Source: Fibrobacter sp. (GTDB lineage: Bacteria; Fibrobacterota; Fibrobacteria; Fibrobacterales; Fibrobacteraceae). Taken from it: a DNA stretch of 64,000 nucleotides. Numbering within the stretch: the first letter of the stretch is position 1; each line of letters starts with the position of its first letter. The translations under genes and the position numbers were made by a program. The stretch lies in assembly GCA_017503015.1 (NCBI GenBank), contig JAFVTX010000002.1:1-64000 (forward strand). The letters run 5' to 3'. The notes under the pieces are model-generated. The model ran no database searches. It was not told where the DNA came from and saw only the letters and a program-made list of their open reading frames with translations. Positions 19,282 to 27,590 of the stretch are shown one piece after another.

Positions 19282-20199
19282 TTATGGGGTTTCGTACAAT
19301 CCCTTGCTGAAGTAACGGTCGCCACGGTCGGGCGCAACGAACACGATGTTTCCGCGGGCACCCGAGGCGATGAGTTTCTTGGCTGCGGTGAACGCGGCAC
19401 CCGAAGAGGAGCCTGCGAAGATTCCTTCTTTCTGGGCGAGTTCGCGAGAGCCGGTAAAGGCGTCGTCATCGTTGATTTTGATGACCTGATCCACCAGCGA
19501 CATGTCCATGGTATCGGCGATAAAGTCGTTGCCGATTCCTTCGATGTTGTAGTCGCCATGTTCGCCGCCGCCCATGGTAGAGCCGATGGGGTCTGCCAGC
19601 ACGCCCTTGATGCTTGGGTTGCGTTCCTTGAGAGCCTTGAGGATTCCGCTGAAGGTGCCGCCGCTGCCTGCGCCTGCCACTACGTAGTCTACGTGACCGT
19701 CCAGGTCTTCGTAGATTTCAGGGCCGGTGGTTTCGTAATGGGCGAGGGGGTTGGCCATATTGTGGAACTGCCGAAGCGAAACAGAATCGGGAATCTGTTT
19801 CAAAAGTTCTTCGGCCTTCTTTTCGGCTCCTAGCATGCCTTCTTCGCGGGGGGTGTTGATGAGTTCTGCGCCGAGGGCGCGCAGGAGCGTCTGCTTTTCT
19901 TGCGAGAACTTGGTGGGCACCACGAATATCACGCGGATGCCGCGGTTGAGCGCGGCGAAGGCAATGCCAAGGCCGGTGTTGCCTGCGGTCGCCTCGACGA
20001 TGGTTCCGTCCGGCTTGAGCGTTCCTTTTGCGAGAGCGTCGTTCACCATATAAAGGCCGGTACGGTCCTTCACGCTGCCCGAGGGGTTCCAGAGTTCCAG
20101 TTTGGCAAACAGGTTTGCGCCTTCGGGGAGCCCCACGTGCGAAAGTTTTACAAGCGGAGTCTTGCCGATTAGGCCCTGCATAGATTCGTAGTAATGCAT
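19282..20199 (-). CDS. PLP-dependent cysteine synthase / cystathionine beta-synthase family enzyme
   Basis: A 305-residue fold-type II PLP enzyme beginning MHYYESMQGLIGKTPLVKLSH, with the PLP lysine in NPSGSVKDRTG and the phosphate loop GAGSGGTFSG. The segment IEGIGNDFIADTMDMSLVDQV followed by NDDDAF is like true cystathionine beta-synthases and MccA, more than plain CysK. It is therefore likely that homocysteine or O-acetylserine chemistry is catalysed here, feeding the gamma-lyase-like partner encoded one base upstream. AAAGGAG lies seven bases before the ATG, and a longer upstream reading overlapping the partner gene is rejected. The operon is headed by a cysteine-rich leader peptide. Plain O-acetylserine sulfhydrylase remains possible. 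Confidence 0.88.
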   Translation of the reverse strand: MHYYESMQGLIGKTPLVKLSHVGLPEGANLFAKLELWNPSGSVKDRTGLYMVNDALAKGTLKPDGTIVEATAGNTGLGIAFAALNRGIRVIFVVPTKFSQEKQTLLRALGAELINTPREEGMLGAEKKAEELLKQIPDSVSLRQFHNMANPLAHYETTGPEIYEDLDGHVDYVVAGAGSGGTFSGILKALKERNPSIKGVLADPIGSTMGGGEHGDYNIEGIGNDFIADTMDMSLVDQVIKINDDDAFTGSRELAQKEGIFAGSSSGAAFTAAKKLIASGARGNIVFVAPDRGDRYFSKGLYETP

Positions 20200-20200
20200 T

Positions 20201-21382
20201 TTATGCTCCTTTCGCCGAATCGGACGGTGCGGCCGCCGCATTGATTGCCGCGACCAGGTCCACAATGATGTCATCCACTTTCTCGATGCCTACAGACAAA
20301 CGAATGAGTCCGTCGGTGATGCCCACCTTTTCGCGAATTTCCTTCGGAATGGAGGCATGGGTCATGGTAGCCGGATGGCATACGAGGCTTTCGACGCCGC
20401 CCAAACTTTCGGCGAGCGAAATCAGCTGCAATGCCTTGAAGAATTTCTTGATGTCGTAGTTTTCGTAAAGTTCGAACGAAATCATGGCGCCGCCGTTCTT
20501 GGCTTGTTTCTTGTTGATTTCATAACCCTGTGCGGTCGGAAGGCCCGGATAATAAACATGCTTTACAGCCTCGTGGCTCTCCAGGTAGCGGGCGATGCGT
20601 TCTGCATTTTCGGTATGGCGATCGAGGCGCACGCCGAGCGTCTTGATACCGCGAATCAAGAGGAAGGAATCAAAGGGGCCGAGTACAGCGCCAACAGCGT
20701 TCTGCGTGAAGGCGAGACGTTCCGCAATTTCTTTGTTGTTGGTCACCGCAAGGCCTGCCACCAGATCGCTATGGCCGCCCAGATACTTGGTCGCGCTATG
20801 CACAACGATGTCGGCGCCCAGTTCCAGTGGACGCTGCAAATAAGGCGTCATGAAGGTATTATCGACAATCGTCAGAATTCCGTGCTTCTTGGCAATCGCG
20901 GCCACCCCTGCTAAGTCTGTCACGGTCAGGAGCGGGTTTGCCGGGCTTTCGATAAAGAAGGCCTTCACATCGGGCGTCACCTTGGTATCAAGTGCTGCCA
21001 AGTCGGTAGTATCTTCAATGGAGTAGGTGATGCCCAGGTTCTTGAAAACCTTGTCCAGAACGCGAAAGGTTCCGCCGTACACATTGCTCGAGATGATGAT
21101 TTTGTCGCCCTTGTTAAACAGGGCAAGAACCGTTGAGGTGGCCGCCATGCCGCTTGCAAAGGCAAAGCCTGCCACACCGCCTTCCAGTTCTGCAATCAGG
21201 GCTTCCAGGGCTGCGCGCGTGGGGTTGCCCGTGCGGGAATATTCCCAGCCCGTATTTTCACCAAGGCCCGCCTGCTTGTAGGTGGAAGTCTGGTAGATGG
21301 GTACGTTGACAGCACCTGTTACGCTGTCGCCATCGATGCCGCCGTGAATGAGTTTTGTTTCGATATACTTAGAAGTTGACAT
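20201..21382 (-). CDS. Cystathionine gamma-synthase/gamma-lyase family PLP enzyme
   Basis: A 393-residue Cys/Met-metabolism enzyme: NVPIYQTSTYKQ, WEYSRTGNPTR, FASGMAATSTVL, DNTFMTPYLQRPLELGADI and the PLP lysine in VVHSATKYLGGHSD. Gamma-lyase and gamma-synthase cannot be told apart with certainty. The pairing with a cystathionine beta-synthase-like gene, one base apart, favours gamma-lyase and reverse transsulfuration (homocysteine to cysteine), as in mccA-mccB pairs. Transcription starts far upstream, and the leader holds a six-cysteine peptide plus an attenuator terminator, so expression should rise when Cys-tRNA is short. Confidence 0.9.
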   Translation of the reverse strand: MSTSKYIETKLIHGGIDGDSVTGAVNVPIYQTSTYKQAGLGENTGWEYSRTGNPTRAALEALIAELEGGVAGFAFASGMAATSTVLALFNKGDKIIISSNVYGGTFRVLDKVFKNLGITYSIEDTTDLAALDTKVTPDVKAFFIESPANPLLTVTDLAGVAAIAKKHGILTIVDNTFMTPYLQRPLELGADIVVHSATKYLGGHSDLVAGLAVTNNKEIAERLAFTQNAVGAVLGPFDSFLLIRGIKTLGVRLDRHTENAERIARYLESHEAVKHVYYPGLPTAQGYEINKKQAKNGGAMISFELYENYDIKKFFKALQLISLAESLGGVESLVCHPATMTHASIPKEIREKVGITDGLIRLSVGIEKVDDIIVDLVAAINAAAAPSDSAKGA

Positions 21383-21437: not shown

Positions 21438-21475
21438 TAAAAAAATCCCGCTCAGGAATTGTATCTGAGCGGGAT
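21438..21475 (-). terminator. Attenuator terminator in the metB-like operon leader
   Basis: On the minus strand ATCCCGCTCAG, 9-base loop, CTGAGCGGGAT, then seven T and ATT. The 11-base-pair stem is perfect. It lies between the leader peptide and the structural gene. Its first arm (CCCGCTCA) is also perfectly complementary to TGAGCGGG at 21526-21519, which begins with the leader peptide stop codon, so an antiterminator can form instead. Confidence 0.9.
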
Positions 21476-21523
21476 CGTGTTTAGAGTCTTGTTAAACCAA
21501 TAGCCTAAAAACTAGTCGCCCGC

Positions 21524-21583
21524 TCAACATCGACACACGCAACACACGTTGCAGAATTTCTTTGAAAAGGCAGGTGAATTCAT
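21524..21583 (-). CDS. Cysteine-rich leader peptide (attenuator)
   Basis: The 19-codon frame MNSPAFSKKFCNVCCVCRC has six cysteines in its last nine residues (positions 11, 14, 15, 17 and 19, plus the CC doublet counted individually: C11, C14, C15, C17, C19 and none elsewhere gives five codons certain by position). The TGA stop is the first base triplet of the antiterminator arm TGAGCGGG. It sits about 30 bases after the predicted transcription start and 50 bases before the terminator. A weak AGGA lies 12 bases before the ATG. The arrangement is that of classical amino-acid attenuation: ribosomes stalled on Cys codons would leave TGAGCGGG free to pair with the terminator's first arm. Confidence 0.85.
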   Translation of the reverse strand: MNSPAFSKKFCNVCCVCRC

Positions 21584-21596
21584 CGTGATTTTATTT

Positions 21597-21613
21597 CCTA
21601 TATTTTTTGTAGG
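21597..21613 (-). promoter_or_regulatory. 17-base operator-like motif at the metB start site
   Basis: CCTACAAAAAATATAGG on the minus strand, three bases after the -10. It matches the motifs at metY and srpI, and a repressor binding at the start site is the simplest reading. Confidence 0.6.
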
Positions 21614-21616
21614 GAT

Positions 21617-21645
21617 AATATAGGCAAAAATTTTCTCGCTGTCAA
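21617..21645 (-). promoter_or_regulatory. Promoter of the metB-like operon
   Basis: On the minus strand TTGACA (21645-21640), 17-base spacer, TATATT (21622-21617); a near-consensus promoter. Confidence 0.85.
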
Positions 21646-21666
21646 CCAAATTCGGGCTATTCGGTT

Positions 21667-21706
21667 ATACTATTTTTCTTTAGCTAGTAATAGTTTTTTG
21701 CTATAA
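21667..21706 (-). promoter_or_regulatory. Distal sulfur box upstream of the metB-like operon
   Basis: Read on the plus strand it runs ATACTATTTTTCTTTAGC, then AGTAATAGTTTTTTGC and TATA. It shares the layout of the other sulfur boxes and most closely the metY box. It starts 21 bases beyond the -35, ten more than in metY. Confidence 0.5.
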
Positions 21707-21719
21707 CGCAACTAAATGA

Positions 21720-22679
21720 CTAAATGATATAGTACCAGACATCGCTCTGTTTGAGCTCCTCTGACTTGTGTTGCTTATCGGTAGAAACGTAGTCCATTTC
21801 GAGGCTCTTCATGCTCACGCGGGTATTGGGCGCGACAGAACTCGTGATGAAGGCGCTACCGCCGATGATGGCATTTTCGCCCACGACGGTATCACCGCCG
21901 AGAATGGAGGCGTTCGCGTAAATGGTTACGTTGTCTTGAATGGTGGGGTGACGCTTTTTGCCGGAGAGGCGCTGGCCCCCGCGTGTCGAAAGAGCACCGA
22001 GAGTGACACCCTGGTAAATCTTCACGTTCTTGCCTATCACGGCGGTTTCGCCAATGACGATGCCTGTGCCGTGATCGATAAAGAAGTACTTGCCGATGGA
22101 TGCGCCCGGATGGATATCGATGCCCGTTTTGGAATGGGCGTATTCGGTCATGAGACGCGGGAGAACGGGTACATGCAAAAGGTAAAGCTCGTGGGCGATG
22201 CGGTAAATCGTTGTCGCCATAAGGCCAGGGTAGGCGAGGATAATTTCGTCGAGGCAGCCGGCAGCAGGGTCGCCATCGTAGGCGGCGTGCAAGTCGGTTT
22301 CAAGGCATTCGCGAATCAATGGAATCTTGGCGAAAAACTCCTTGCAGATACGGTAGCTTTCAATCTTGCGCTCGTCGGAGCTCATGGTGCCGCGGAGCTT
22401 GCAGTAATCGAGAGCAATGGCCACCTGCTTGTGGAGGTGGTAAAAGGTGTCCTCGATAATGACCGCAAAGCTGTTCTTGGGGTTGTAAATCTTGTGGGTG
22501 CGGTCCCTGAAATGCCCAGGATAAACTACGCGGATTAGGTTCTGCAAAATCGTCTGGATTTCGGCCTGGTCGGGTCGATTATAGATGTCGATGTTGTCGA
22601 TATGCTTGCCGCGATTGTAATCGGCAAAAATCGTTTGTACCGCTTTTTCGACTTCTGATTCCTGGATAAGTTTGTGCAT
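21720..22679 (-). CDS. Serine O-acetyltransferase (EpsC/CysE family)
   Basis: This 319-residue protein makes O-acetylserine for cysteine synthesis. The N-terminal 180 residues are helical. The C-terminal left-handed beta-helix is built from hexapeptide repeats, with GIDIHPGASIGKYFFIDHGTG containing the catalytic histidines, then VIGETAVIGKNVKIYQGVTLGA and GGDTVVGENAIIGGSAF. The long N-terminus fits the EpsC subtype that is common beside family 2A encapsulins. It lies 104 bases downstream of the cargo desulfurase gene, in the same direction. Confidence 0.93.
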   Translation of the reverse strand: MHKLIQESEVEKAVQTIFADYNRGKHIDNIDIYNRPDQAEIQTILQNLIRVVYPGHFRDRTHKIYNPKNSFAVIIEDTFYHLHKQVAIALDYCKLRGTMSSDERKIESYRICKEFFAKIPLIRECLETDLHAAYDGDPAAGCLDEIILAYPGLMATTIYRIAHELYLLHVPVLPRLMTEYAHSKTGIDIHPGASIGKYFFIDHGTGIVIGETAVIGKNVKIYQGVTLGALSTRGGQRLSGKKRHPTIQDNVTIYANASILGGDTVVGENAIIGGSAFITSSVAPNTRVSMKSLEMDYVSTDKQHKSEELKQSDVWYYII

Positions 22680-22783: not shown

Positions 22784-24526
22784 TTATGCGAACGTCTTCA
22801 GCGCCCTCACAAGAGCGTCGATGTCGTCCGGCGAGTTGTACAGCGCAAGCGTCGGGCGAACGGTACTTTCGTAACCGAAATGCCTGAGCACCGGCTGTGC
22901 GCAGTGGTGACCTGTACGTACGGCGACACCGTAGGCATCGAGCCTCTTGCCCACTTCTTCGTCGGAATAACCGTCGAGCTTGAAGGCAAGTGCAGAAGCC
23001 TTGTTGAGTGCCGTACCTACAAGATGCAGGCCCTTGACGGTCTTCAGTTCCTTGAGGCCATACTGCAACAGTTCATGTTCCCAGCGGAATACGCAGGGCA
23101 TCCCGATTTCGGAGAGGTACTGGAGGGCAGCACCCAAGCCTACGGCGTCAGCGATGCTTCCGGTTCCCGCTTCGAACTTGTTCGGAATCCCGTTGTAGAT
23201 GGTGCGTTCGAACGTGACGTCGGCAATCATGTTGCCACCGCCGTGGTACGGGCGTGCCGCTTCCAGCAATTCCTTCTTGCCGTAAACGACGCCGATACCG
23301 GTCGGGGCAAACACCTTGTGTCCAGAGAACACGAAGAAGTCTGCGTCGAGGGCGGAAACATTCACCGGAATGTGCGCGATGGACTGTGCCCCATCAATGA
23401 GGATTCTCACGCCGTGCCTGTGGGCGATGGCAATGAGTTCCTCGATCGGTGTCACGGTGCCGAGCACGTTCGAGACATGCGTCACGGAAACGAACTTGGT
23501 GCGCTTCGTGAATAGCGCCTCGTAATCGTGCAACTTGAGCTGGCCGGTAGAATCGCAGGGAATCACCTTGATGATGGCGCCCGTTTCTTCGGCGATGAGC
23601 TGCCACGGCACGATGTTCGCATGGTGTTCCAGGATAGAGACGATGATTTCGTCACCCGGCTGGAGCGTCGGCTTCACGTAGGCGTTAGCCACCAGGTTGA
23701 TTGCCTCGGTGGTACCGCGCACGAACACGATTTCCTGCGAAGACGGGGCCCCGATAAAGTCGCGCACGATGTTACGGGCGTTTTCGTAGGCATCCGTCGA
23801 TGCAGCCGCAAGCGTATGGGCGCCACGGTGCACGTTGGAGTTTTCGTTTTCGTAGTAGTACTTGAGACGGTCAATCACCACCTGCGGGCGCTGCGTCGTA
23901 GCACCGTTATCGAGCCAGACGAGCGGATGGCCGTTGACCTGCTTCGAAAGAATCGGGAAATCGCTACGGATTTGCGCAAGGTTCTTGGAACCGATGCGGA
24001 TGGATTCGTTGCGGGAATTGGAGCCGCTGTTTGCGGAACCCGTCTTCACGGAATCGCCTCCGAGAGAAGTCGGAGCGTCGATTGGGCGCGCGTTCTGTGC
24101 AGCCTGCGTCTTGGACACGACCTTCGGGGAGTATCCTTGAGCCGGCGCGGGCGCCGCCGGAACATCGCCGAACTGCGACACAAATTCCGCTTCGGGAATC
24201 GCAGGGGCTTCCACGGATTTGAGCCAGGTATCGGTGGAATTGCCGCCGTAGGCAAACGGAGCCGAAGAAGTCGGCTGGTCGCCATAGGTCGCAAACGGAT
24301 GTTCCCAGTCGAATTCGGGAGTCTGGCTGATGGCAGCCGCTCCTTGGGCGGCGCTCACTCCCTGAGCCACAGAAGCATTCTGCACTTCGGGTGCCGCGGG
24401 AGTTGCAGCATAAGCACTGTCCGTCAAGTCGGGAAAGTACTCATTTGCCAACTGCTCCAGTTCAGCCGCATTGGGAACTCCGGCGAGTTCTTCCAGCGAT
24501 CTGGTATCTGGATTATTCGTAATCAT
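22784..24526 (-). CDS. Family 2A encapsulin cargo: cysteine desulfurase (SufS-like) with long disordered N-terminal targeting region
   Basis: A 580-residue protein. Residues 1-175 are low in complexity, rich in Ala, Pro, Ser and Gln, with short conserved-looking islands (SLEELAGVPNAAELEQLA, EFDWEHPFATYG, EFVSQFGDVPAAPAPAQGY). This matches the encapsulation region of desulfurase cargos. The rest is a group II desulfurase: VWLDNGATTQRP, HRGAHTLA, EHHANIVPW, DGAQSIAH, PLP lysine in FSGHKVFAPTG, and the catalytic cysteine in RTGHHCAQP. It converts cysteine to alanine plus persulfide. ATG at 24526 is chosen over an upstream TTG, because GAGG lies 12 bases from the ATG and abuts the TTG. The gene overlaps srpI by 14 bases. 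Confidence 0.95.
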   Translation of the reverse strand: MITNNPDTRSLEELAGVPNAAELEQLANEYFPDLTDSAYAATPAAPEVQNASVAQGVSAAQGAAAISQTPEFDWEHPFATYGDQPTSSAPFAYGGNSTDTWLKSVEAPAIPEAEFVSQFGDVPAAPAPAQGYSPKVVSKTQAAQNARPIDAPTSLGGDSVKTGSANSGSNSRNESIRIGSKNLAQIRSDFPILSKQVNGHPLVWLDNGATTQRPQVVIDRLKYYYENENSNVHRGAHTLAAASTDAYENARNIVRDFIGAPSSQEIVFVRGTTEAINLVANAYVKPTLQPGDEIIVSILEHHANIVPWQLIAEETGAIIKVIPCDSTGQLKLHDYEALFTKRTKFVSVTHVSNVLGTVTPIEELIAIAHRHGVRILIDGAQSIAHIPVNVSALDADFFVFSGHKVFAPTGIGVVYGKKELLEAARPYHGGGNMIADVTFERTIYNGIPNKFEAGTGSIADAVGLGAALQYLSEIGMPCVFRWEHELLQYGLKELKTVKGLHLVGTALNKASALAFKLDGYSDEEVGKRLDAYGVAVRTGHHCAQPVLRHFGYESTVRPTLALYNSPDDIDALVRALKTFA

Positions 24527-25478
24527 AGTATTCGCCAACCTCTACGTCTTCGAGAACTGCAATGGCATCGTCGGCAAGGATAGCCGCAGAGCAGTACAGG
24601 GAAAGCAGGTAAGAAGCAACGCCCTTGTTGTCGATGCCGCGGAAACGCACGGAGAGACCGCGAGAATGTTCGTTCTTGAGACCGGCCTGGAAGAGGCCGA
24701 TTACGCCGCGCTTGGCTTCGCCAGTACGCACGAGCAAGATATTGGTCTTGCCGCCCTGGGACTTCGGATTCTTCACGCCGTCCACGAGGAGCTTATCGGT
24801 CGGGACCAGAGGAATTCCGCGCCAGGTGAGGAACTTGCCACCGGCGATATCGACAACAACAGGCGGCACGCCACGGCGGGTGCATTCGCGTTCGAATGCG
24901 GCAATGGCACGCGGGTGAGCAAGGAAGAAGGACGGTTCCTTCCAAACCTTCGAAATGAGTTCGTCGAGATCGTCCGGTGTGGGGCGTCCGTCGGCGCGGA
25001 GCGGCTGAATGCGCTGGGAATCAGCCACGTTCTTCAGCAGGCCGTAATCGTCGTTGTTGATGAGCAGGCTTTCCTGACGTTCGCGGAGCGATTCGATAGC
25101 GAGGCCGAGCTGTTCCTGAACCTGGTCATACGGAGAACTGTAAACGTCTTCGATGGCCGTGTTCACGTTGATAATCGTAGAGATAGAATTGAGTTTGTAT
25201 TCGCGCGGTTCGGTTTCGTATTCGACGTAGCCTTCCGGAATAATGTCGGTTTTCTTGGTCTGGCTGCAAAGAACATCGAGCGGGGTTTCGCCTTCCACGA
25301 CCTTGTTCACACGGAACAGGCCCGTTTCGAGACCCTTGAATTCAAGGAACTTGGTGAGCCACTTGGGAGTAAGTGCACCGAATTGCGGCTTGGTCTTGGT
25401 GACGTTCGCCAGGTTGTAGGCAGCCTTTGCGCCAAGCGCATTGATGCCGGTTTTCTTTTCTGTAGCTTCATTTGCCAT
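24513..25478 (-). CDS. srpI: Family 2A encapsulin shell protein (SrpI-like)
   Basis: The 321-residue shell protein of a sulfur-related nanocompartment, with an HK97-like fold. Recalled Synechococcus SrpI matches closely along the chain: NVTKTKPQFGALTPKWL, ETGLFRVNKV, YETEPREYKLNSIST, YSSPYDQVQEQLGLAIES, ERQESLLINNDDYGLL, PTPDDLDELISKVWKEPSFF, RRGVPPVVVDIAGGKFLTWRG and LFQAGLKNEHSRGLSVRF. The length is right for the family. The shell gene comes first, and the cargo desulfurase and serine acetyltransferase follow. Ribosome site AAGAGGT precedes the ATG. The upstream region has the 17-base CCTAC...ATAGG motif also found at metY and metB. Confidence 0.95.
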   Translation of the reverse strand: MANEATEKKTGINALGAKAAYNLANVTKTKPQFGALTPKWLTKFLEFKGLETGLFRVNKVVEGETPLDVLCSQTKKTDIIPEGYVEYETEPREYKLNSISTIINVNTAIEDVYSSPYDQVQEQLGLAIESLRERQESLLINNDDYGLLKNVADSQRIQPLRADGRPTPDDLDELISKVWKEPSFFLAHPRAIAAFERECTRRGVPPVVVDIAGGKFLTWRGIPLVPTDKLLVDGVKNPKSQGGKTNILLVRTGEAKRGVIGLFQAGLKNEHSRGLSVRFRGIDNKGVASYLLSLYCSAAILADDAIAVLEDVEVGEYYDYE

Positions 25479-25568: not shown

Positions 25569-27035
25569 TTACAGCCATGCGCCTTCGTGCGAGAACATGA
25601 TGTCCTTCATGGCATCAACGCCGCCTTTAAGGTTATAGAGCGGCCCCGTGTAGCCCGCTTCGCGCAAGGTGTTGATGGCGAGAATGCTGCGCTTGCCCTG
25701 CTTGCAAATAAAGACGGTATCCTTGTTCGGGTCCAGTTCTTTTTGCCTGCGGGCCAGCTGCCCAATGGGAATCACGATGGCGTTGGGGAAGCGTAAAATC
25801 GCGCGTTCATGGGGTTCGCGCACATCGATAATGGTCAGCGGGTCGCCATTGTCAATCTTCTTCGCGAGTTCTTCGGGCGTAAAGCCCTCCACCGGGATTT
25901 CGTTGTTTTCCTTGAGCCCGCAAAAATCTTCATAATCAAACTCTTCGATATCGGTTATGGTCGGGTTCTTTCCGCAAATCGGACAGTCGCTCTGCCTCTG
26001 AACTTGGATAATTTTCGATTTTAGATAAAGACTGTCAATAATCAGGAGCTTTCCGCTCAGGACTTCGCCGACTCCGATAATTAACTTTAGCGCTTCATTT
26101 GCCTGGATGCTCCCGATAATTCCCGGCAGCGGGCTGATCGTTCCACCCGATGCGCAAGAAGGTACAAGTCCTGCAGGGGGCGGTTCCTTAAAAAGGCAGC
26201 GGTAACAGGGGCCGCCATTCAGGTTGAATACGCCGACACGCCCTTCGAACTGGTAAACGGCTCCAAATACTAGCGGTGTTCCGTTCAAGACGCAGGCATC
26301 GTTAATCAGGTAACGGGATTTGTAGTTGTCGGTACAGTCTATGACGAGGTCATATCCCTCAATCAGCCTTAGGACATTATCTGCTGAAATTTCTTCTTTT
26401 TCGGCCTCGACCACAATGGACTTGTTCACATTCCGAATCCTGTCTTTTGCGGAGGCGACTTTGGGCCGTTTAATGTCACGAGTGCCATACAGGACCTGAT
26501 TTTGCAGGCCGTCCAATGAGACTTCGCTATTGTCGATAATCTTGATTGTGCCTACACCTGCCGCCGCAAGGTACTGGATTACGGCGGAACCAAGCGCTCC
26601 CGCTCCAACAACGACGACACGTGCCGCCTTGATGCGCTTTTGTCCCTTGACTCCGATTTCCTTGAGCATCAGGTGTTTCCCAAAACGCTCCACTTCGGAG
26701 TCGTCAAAGGAGACCTCTTTACGTCGTGCATCGGAGATGATGCTTTCTGTCGAAGATTCTACAACAGGTGCGCCACCTGCAATCGCTGGCAGCAGAAGGA
26801 TTTCTGTCTCTTCTGAAAGCGGCGTGTCCCAAAGGGCGTCGAGCAGGTTCTTGCCATTGACATAGATCTGGATAAAGCTTCTGAGCTTATTGTTGTCATC
26901 AAACAGGACCTTGCCTGCGTCTGGATACATGTCCAGAAGGATAGCGAGGGCTTTCCTGACAGAGCTCGCCGGGATTTCTATCTGTGCACTGTTTCCAAAA
27001 AAATTTCTAAGTGTAGCCGAGATGTAAATTTTCAC
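25569..27035 (-). CDS. Triple fusion: MoaD/ThiS-like ubiquitin fold, MoeB/ThiF-like E1, rhodanese
   Basis: Residues 1-90 are a MoaD/CysO-like beta-grasp domain ending LLPAIAGG. The Gly-Gly is not at a C-terminus but runs on into a linker (APVVESSTES). Residues about 110-370 are an adenylating E1: HLMLKEIGVKGQKRI, VVVGAGALGSAV, DNSEVSLDGLQNQVLYG, CTDNYKSRYLIND, and the zinc pairs CYRC and CPICG. Residues about 390-488 are a rhodanese with DVREPHERAI and active-site CKQGKRS. The protein begins with GTG, preceded by TTGTACGGAGG. The gene has its own sulfur-box promoter and ends 90 bases before srpI. It presumably activates a carrier tail and passes sulfur from cysteine to it. Confidence 0.92.
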   Translation of the reverse strand: MKIYISATLRNFFGNSAQIEIPASSVRKALAILLDMYPDAGKVLFDDNNKLRSFIQIYVNGKNLLDALWDTPLSEETEILLLPAIAGGAPVVESSTESIISDARRKEVSFDDSEVERFGKHLMLKEIGVKGQKRIKAARVVVVGAGALGSAVIQYLAAAGVGTIKIIDNSEVSLDGLQNQVLYGTRDIKRPKVASAKDRIRNVNKSIVVEAEKEEISADNVLRLIEGYDLVIDCTDNYKSRYLINDACVLNGTPLVFGAVYQFEGRVGVFNLNGGPCYRCLFKEPPPAGLVPSCASGGTISPLPGIIGSIQANEALKLIIGVGEVLSGKLLIIDSLYLKSKIIQVQRQSDCPICGKNPTITDIEEFDYEDFCGLKENNEIPVEGFTPEELAKKIDNGDPLTIIDVREPHERAILRFPNAIVIPIGQLARRQKELDPNKDTVFICKQGKRSILAINTLREAGYTGPLYNLKGGVDAMKDIMFSHEGAWL

Positions 27036-27191: not shown

Positions 27192-27590
27192 TTATGACTC
27201 CGCGGTAAAAGTCCTTATATCGACGACTCCGTCGGCTGTGACGGAGAGAATGGCATAAATGAGCCCTGGGACCATTTTTTCGGTATCTTCCCTGGATGGG
27301 ATGGCCTCGCAATCGGGATGGGAGTGGTAGAACCCGACGATTTCAAGCCCGCTTCCTTCGATTTCTCGTTCCACCTGGTAAAGAAACAGCGGGTTCGCCT
27401 CGAAGCGGGTGGATTTCTGCTCTCCCTGAACCAGGTTGGGGGCTTCGCGGGTTTCTAGAACCTCAATTTCGCCTTTTCCACTATTTTTGGCGGTTTTTCC
27501 GAGCAAAATACCGCAACATTCACCTGGATAGGCGGCTTTTGCGGCCTCCTCCATTTGACAAGACGAGATTTTGTTCAGATTGATTTCCAT
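27192..27590 (-). CDS. JAMM/MPN+ metalloprotease (Mec-like), second copy
   Basis: A 132-residue JAB1/MPN domain. The zinc site is complete: Glu in YPGECCGILLG, then H-S-H in GFYHSHPDCEAIPSREDTE, with the acidic ligand in the same motif. Relatives release C-terminal extensions from ubiquitin-like sulfur carriers (Mec+ acting on CysO). The ATG comes directly after the T-run of a strong terminator, with no ribosome site, so translation must depend on read-through or on another start. The stop is eight bases from a run of nine G that abuts the next sulfur promoter. Confidence 0.88.
   Translation of the reverse strand: MEINLNKISSCQMEEAAKAAYPGECCGILLGKTAKNSGKGEIEVLETREAPNLVQGEQKSTRFEANPLFLYQVEREIEGSGLEIVGFYHSHPDCEAIPSREDTEKMVPGLIYAILSVTADGVVDIRTFTAES

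Follow-up and report, generated by a model that had tools for sequence, protein, structure and literature searches.

The analysed stretch of DNA, hereafter called the window, comprises the first 64,000 nt of contig JAFVTX010000002.1 of a Fibrobacter sp. genome (GCA_017503015.1). Its minus strand contains a two-gene mccB-mccA operon, which is preceded by a short regulatory region and by cysE (Table 1). The nearest PDB chains are 4l0o and 7d7o for the mccB-like protein and 5xw3 for the mccA-like protein. The NCBIfam models closest to the mccB-like protein are those of a gamma-synthase and a gamma-lyase and both matches are below the curated cut-offs, so that the direction of transsulfuration is assigned from the type of operon, i.e. 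mccA-mccB pairs serve the conversion of methionine to cysteine in Firmicutes (PMC2940859).

The genes further upstream are also connected to sulfur. cysE is adjoined by the genes for a family 2A encapsulin shell protein and for its cargo, a cysteine desulfurase whose N-terminal extension is long; this known system is found here inside a cluster of sulfur genes. They are followed by a single ORF that combines ThiS-like, ThiF/MoeB, and rhodanese parts, and by a JAB-domain gene; this stretch looks like a sulfur-carrier protein route to cysteine in the vicinity of the mccBA operon.

Table 1. Features of the mccBA locus and its surroundings (window coordinates).
Feature	Position	Strand	Basis or remark
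mccA-like PALP enzyme (cystathionine beta-synthase / O-acetylserine lyase type), operon gene 2	19282..20199	-	PF00291, E 2e-69
mccB-like cystathionine gamma-lyase/synthase (Cys/Met metabolism PLP enzyme), operon gene 1	20201..21382	-	PF01053, E 3e-155
Terminator T7 tract	21439..21445	-	Sequence; T5 or longer in essentially all copies
Intrinsic terminator stem-loop (regions 3:4), 5′ arm GATCCCGCTCAG, 3′ arm CTGAGCGGGATT	21444..21476	-	Fold, pair counts, slid controls
CCCGCTCA, in the terminator 5′ arm	21473-21466	-	Exact complement of region 2
Linker with antiterminator inner helix (TTTTAG...CTAAA type)	21481..21514	-	Helix 36-40/68-71 of alignment A2, 98.7% paired; also in per-lineage folds
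Region 2, antiterminator 5′ arm TGAGCGGG	21519..21526	-	First base at leader TGA; exact complement of 21473-21466
CGATGT (Arg-Cys) core	21532-21527	-	
Leader ORF MNSPAFSKKFCNVCCVCRC, 19 codons + TGA; Cys 11, 14, 15, 17, 19	21524..21583	-	ATG at 21583, TGA 21526-21524
AGGA ribosome-binding motif	21596..21599	-	Sequence; 12 nt 5′ of leader ATG
Promoter: TTGACA 21645-21640, 17-nt spacer, TATATT 21622-21617	21617..21645	-	Consensus scan, 11/12 positions
Inverted repeat AACCGAAT-N7-ATTTGGTT	21644-21667	-	One copy in genome
cysE	21720-22679	-	Ends just upstream of attenuator region
Family 2A encapsulin shell gene and cysteine desulfurase cargo gene	22784-25478	-	Adjoins cysE
ORF with ThiS-like, ThiF/MoeB, and rhodanese parts	25569-27035	-	
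JAB-domain gene	27192-27590	-	

A first-pass annotation, which was made from the DNA letters, had described a cysteine attenuator between cysE and mccB. All of its parts were found, and the strand, which it had not given, is the minus strand. The consensus promoter that it had placed upstream was recovered by the scan, and the described 19-codon leader with five cysteines agrees with the sequence. The segment that starts at the leader stop codon, region 2, is indeed perfectly complementary to a part of the first terminator arm (TGAGCGGG versus CCCGCTCA). The terminator and its T-run are likewise present, but the stem, reported as 11 bp, was counted as 12 pairs, including one G-U pair, and is followed by T7. 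The mccB start lies ~55 nt beyond the terminator. Of 200 dinucleotide shuffles of the complete 180-nt leader RNA, 199 fold less well than the natural sequence (z −2.5).

The leader ORF starts ~35 nt downstream of the −10 box, and the predicted 5′-UTR of ~25-30 nt contains the ribosome-binding motif. The spacing between AGGA and the leader ATG in the window copy is above the ideal value and represents a weak point. Almost all of the related leaders also have an AGGA or TAGGA motif upstream, in most cases closer to the start codon. Promoter elements resembling TTGACA and TATATT are also seen again in most relatives, with a weaker −35 box in some groups. The −35 box of the window copy is overlapped by an inverted repeat; 87% of its cells pair across 16 relatives, which also show two-sided changes (AACCG/CGGTT and AACTG/CAGTT), and this repeat is a possible operator or RNA hairpin.

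Taken alone, the window leader is only mildly unusual, since shuffles of its own sequence yielded a P value of ~0.11 for its Cys content. A pattern search of the source genome revealed no second convincing copy. For comparison, we collected mccB orthologues from the phylum and compared their upstream regions. The element is kept at ~50 related loci: the leaders share a tandem Cys pair and the CGATGT core (Arg-Cys), and the RNA retains the terminator as well as the two exclusive helices. With a covariance model, it was detected in 49 of the 168 genomes of the phylum, 48 of which belong to the genus, with E-values from 1e-21 to 1e-12.

The 36 distinct leaders contain 123 Cys codons in frame, versus 33 and 19 in the other two frames. 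Both TGT and TGC are used, and the position −3 relative to CGA encodes Cys in 34 of the 36 leaders. The N-termini of the Fibrobacter leaders are wholly divergent, e.g. MTTNFANICCWCHC, MTQKMMNKCCFCWG, MNFPFNSLNFACCC, and MTIQFANICCMND, each of which is followed by Arg-Cys. The annotation had proposed an alignment across Fibrobacter; this alignment shows that conservation of the Cys codons and the alternative stem is genus-wide, whereas other parts of the leader have diverged. The conservation of in-frame Cys codons together with the helices implies that the window leader is more than a chance ORF. In most relatives, the stop codon is TAG and is located some codons later than the TGA of the window, and a terminating ribosome would still be positioned over region 2. 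One leader (L018) has TAATGT in place of the core, so that the stop precedes the position of CGATGT and the Arg-Cys end is lost.

These results bear on the simplest alternative, i.e. a plain terminator between cysE and mccB that coincides with a chance Cys-rich ORF and has no regulatory function. The shuffle P value of only ~0.1 would be compatible with it, and so would the end of cysE just upstream on the same strand. However, a promoter is situated between cysE and the terminator, and the Cys codons are conserved in frame throughout the genus, as are region 2 and the two helices; these observations contradict this explanation, which we regard as highly improbable.

The leader RNA can form two mutually exclusive structures. 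The antiterminator consists of the pairing of region 2 with region 3 around an inner UUUAG/CUAAA-type helix, and the terminator is formed by the 3′ half. When the segment was folded without the terminator 3′ arm, the antiterminator was the minimum-energy fold in nearly every lineage. The energies of the two structures in the window are comparable (−21.4 kcal/mol for the antiterminator and −19.3 kcal/mol for the terminator). Among the relatives, 93% of the antiterminator cells are paired, versus 32-56% in slid controls, and the respective values for the terminator are 95% versus 29-51%.

Covariation in both stems had been put forward as a check of the annotated attenuator. Two-sided changes do occur in each stem, but they are few, and the sequences are related and thus not independent: the antiterminator has U-A/C-G and A-U/G-C changes, and the terminator has a C-G to U-A double change. 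The region 2/region 3 pairs of the individual lineages were also compared with pairs swapped between lineages. The own pair was better, with a permutation P of 0.005, or of 0.04 on ten representatives, values from which relatedness has not been removed. At four loci (L034, L039, L102, and L103), region 2 is GAACGAGC and its pairing with arms of the GCTCGTTC type is shifted in register, and at two further loci (L049 and L052), pairing is kept through ACGGGCG/CGCCCGT. RNAalifold applied to alignment A2 found the terminator, with almost no covariation credit, and the antiterminator is absent from this fold, as expected for exclusive structures. As a candidate protector (1:2), short GUCG/CGAC or GAUG/CAUC pairs were seen by eye and were not counted as a helix; RNAalifold shows a different small helix.

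A T-box or metabolite riboswitch could in principle bind tRNA-Cys or a sulfur compound directly, and the ORF would then be incidental. There is a precedent for such control, as the ubiGmccBA operon of Clostridium is controlled by a Cys T-box and an S-box (PMC2940859). The Cys T-box resembles the element described here in the methyltransferase-mccB-mccA operon type, in the sensing of Cys-tRNA charge, and in premature termination, but it differs in that the tRNA is read directly by the RNA, without a leader peptide. At the gathering score, Rfam searches of this region of the window and of 38 related loci detected neither a T-box nor any other family. Moreover, no aptamer-sized conserved fold was seen, and the conservation tracks the codons. 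Direct sensing by the RNA is thus very unlikely.

To model translation of the leader, a ribosome mask was placed on it in silico, with RNA polymerase just beyond region 3. A ribosome whose A site holds Cys codon 11, 14, or 15 leaves region 2 accessible in the masked fold, and P(2:3) is 0.99. Once the A site has moved on to codon 17, codon 19, or the stop codon, region 2 is covered and P(2:3) does not exceed 0.02. The earlier suggestion that stalling at the Cys codons frees region 2 is thus borne out for codons 11, 14, and 15, but not for codons 17 and 19. Because region 2 is already masked from codon 17 onward, a sensing function in the window copy is limited to the first three Cys codons, which the model indicates as the likely sensors. 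The fold calculation for the full-length RNA at equilibrium prefers the terminator in every ribosome state; therefore, read-through must be kinetic. Kinetic switching is generally assumed for ribosome-mediated attenuators.

The region thus contains a short Cys-rich leader ORF, a terminator ahead of the first gene, and an antiterminator that shares the terminator 5′ arm, and, in silico, region 2 is freed by a ribosome at Cys codon 11, 14, or 15 and covered by one at the stop codon. In view of these conserved parts, of the two exclusive helices, in which some changes are compensatory, and of the footprint calculations, the element is very probably a ribosome-mediated transcription attenuator of the trp/his type that senses charged tRNA-Cys and controls mccB-mccA, i.e. 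the route from methionine or homocysteine to cysteine. We infer leader translation, stalling, read-through, and a response to cysteine as follows. With ample Cys-tRNA, the ribosome would reach the leader stop and cover region 2 (TGAGCGGG), and the 3:4 terminator would form. With scarce Cys-tRNA, the ribosome would stall at Cys codon 11, 14, or 15, and region 2 would remain free to pair with the emerging region 3. This 2:3 pairing would delay or block the terminator, and mccBA would be transcribed.

Two other modes of action for a Cys leader were considered. Its main effect might be on translation, through attenuation or coupling, and not on transcription termination; citing papers (PMC13236596) describe such an action for the poly-Cys leaders of mycobacteria. 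In almost all copies, the leader is separated from the gene by a strong intrinsic terminator that ends in a T-run, and the ribosome-binding site of mccB, ~45 nt further down, is not part of the switching helices; both features argue against a mainly translational mechanism, to which we assign a very low probability.

The second possibility concerns the CGATGT core, which is near-invariant in Fibrobacter and recurs in Ruminococcus leaders (AQRCC, SERC, SCRC). Its conservation exceeds the needs of a simple attenuation model. The nascent chain, or a slow codon within the CGA-TGT core, might actively arrest the ribosome in response to a cue other than Cys-tRNA, e.g. a sulfur metabolite, and operate the same 2:3/3:4 switch. 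The conservation of CGATGT beyond simple Cys counting, even across phyla, is in line with this idea. However, the N-termini vary freely and only the Cys codons and Arg-Cys recur, and the footprint folds predict that a ribosome arrested there would cover region 2, with termination as the result. Active arrest as the basis of the switch therefore appears very improbable as well, and the sensing of charged tRNA-Cys is the preferred reading.

The element is not confined to mccB. In one genome (G120), it lies ahead of a second cysteine operon, which comprises genes for a methyltransferase (PF04072), cysK, and a PatB/MalY-like lyase, as named from sequence (leader MTHFFKIICCAFCCSRRC). In another (G141), it lies ahead of a methyltransferase gene of the same kind (leader MIRLCVCNCCIRCRTSD). 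About a dozen loci with ordinary cysK genes were checked in the genus, and none of them carries the Cys leader. Several genomes of one clade contain two diverged cysK copies a few kb apart, which are ~80% identical (G104:C1:2182545-2187899, and similarly G060, G105, and G131). Paired cysK copies were devoid of a Cys leader where checked, i.e. at the G131, G104, and G064 loci. Weak covariance-model matches beyond the genus, e.g. in G150 and in R. albus (L237), were rejected if remote from sulfur genes or devoid of a Cys leader. A search of a plasmid collection gave no match.

A genome-wide search uncovered mccB relatives of 71-80% identity in Treponema, Ruminococcus, other Oscillospiraceae, Clostridia, and a few differently labelled MAGs. 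All of the non-Fibrobacter loci examined (49 of 49) have the mccB-mccA pair, and most are preceded by a methyltransferase gene. We estimated the frequency of poly-Cys leaders for the 41 loci with 200 nt or more upstream, a few of which are one genome fetched twice. An ORF with at least three Cys in eight codons is present upstream of the operon at 33 of these loci, compared to 2.9 expected from dinucleotide shuffles and 2 on the other strand. Examples are MNMNFYADRSISSCCQCCCRHRRT (L173, Treponema), SENCCCLCCKNNTGGLFCVL (L200), and MRKNMICCCMCYMIYERILRACAQRCCILS (L223, R. flavefaciens 007c). The leader also occurs in the genome of R. flavefaciens ND2009.

At 27 loci, a Cys leader and a terminator were both detected automatically. 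Without L239, for which there is no region 2 calculation, 26 loci were usable; at 14 of these, the post-Cys segment outperforms 95% of shuffles in its pairing with the 5′ arm of the terminator, and a combined P value is nominal, as the loci are related to one another. Clean switches were visible by eye in folds, e.g. those of L223 (CGTATTCTGCGTG with GCGTGGAATGCG) and L192 (ACAGACGGC with GCCGTCTGT), and for the five-Cys leader of L224 no region 2 could be assigned by eye. The Fibrobacter-like TGTCGATGTTGA core is retained in L216 and L239 (both Oscillospirales) and in L170. A strict automatic detector of the complete architecture scored 6 of 63 loci, and 0 on the reverse strand; this count was discarded because the detector missed known Fibrobacter copies through its choice of longer hairpins. 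Judged from the sequences, similar switches appear to precede mccBA in at least two further phyla, in bacteria from rumen and gut.

In a tree of mccB, the attenuator-bearing Fibrobacter copy groups with Treponema (97/84) and not with the other Fibrobacterota copies; the tree contains a few long branches, and its remainder is unsure. This grouping makes a transfer between phyla likely. One locus labelled Deltaproteobacteria (L162) carries a 94% identical mccB, and MAG labels may mislead for single contigs. The same locus has two elements in one operon, i.e. a copy with a Cys leader before the methyltransferase gene (400-520) and a terminator element lacking a Cys leader between this gene and mccB (1383-1485), as if a gene plus its own attenuator had been inserted.

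The element shares with the trp/his-type attenuators of Proteobacteria the runs of cognate codons, the use of region 3 in both 2:3 and 3:4, and the location before a biosynthetic operon. It differs in that the amino acid is cysteine and that, in the window copy, region 2 starts with the stop codon. A related case is uORFC-8-2 upstream of cysS in Rhodobacterales, in which a uORF with two Cys codons in tandem is combined with an intrinsic terminator, and for which ribosome-mediated attenuation by cysteine has been predicted (PMC8632094). In contrast to the present element, it is found in Alphaproteobacteria and belongs to a cysteinyl-tRNA synthetase gene rather than mccBA; its Cys codons lie within its first stem. 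For the poly-Cys leaders before cysteine genes of Actinobacteria, no conserved terminator hairpin was found (PMC1262725). The mycobacterial poly-Cys ORFs, which also precede cysteine genes, are reported in citing papers to be cysteine-responsive, leaderless, and to act by translational attenuation (Canestrari 2020, cited in PMC9094748 and PMC13236596). The window leader does not match this type, as it has a predicted 5′-UTR, a ribosome-binding motif, and a strong terminator.

The searchable text, which excludes most subscription journals, contained no report for Fibrobacter and no leader-peptide attenuator for mccBA. The layout had been annotated as not known in Fibrobacter, which agrees with the searchable papers, but the device extends beyond this genus. 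Attenuation by cysteine is already known as an idea, and what is unreported is the mccBA target and the spread across phyla. On balance, we favour the view that the elements represent an undescribed family of cysteine attenuators on a methionine-to-cysteine operon (often methyltransferase-mccB-mccA) in gut and rumen Fibrobacterota, Spirochaetota, and Bacillota, which apparently moved with the operon between phyla, takes the place of the Cys T-box of Clostridium, and has a CGATGT core with an extra role.

Classical leader-peptide attenuation would thereby be extended to a phylum for which we found no report, and to an operon that is under T-box control in clostridia, so that two unrelated RNA sensors of one charged tRNA would regulate equivalent genes. 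The natural variants, with shifted registers, stop codons before or after region 2, and 2 to 8 Cys codons in three phyla, offer a ready test set for the roles of the codons and the position of stalling. As cysteine has a central place in the supply of reduced sulfur to rumen fibre degraders, the switch may also bear on their sulfur economy.
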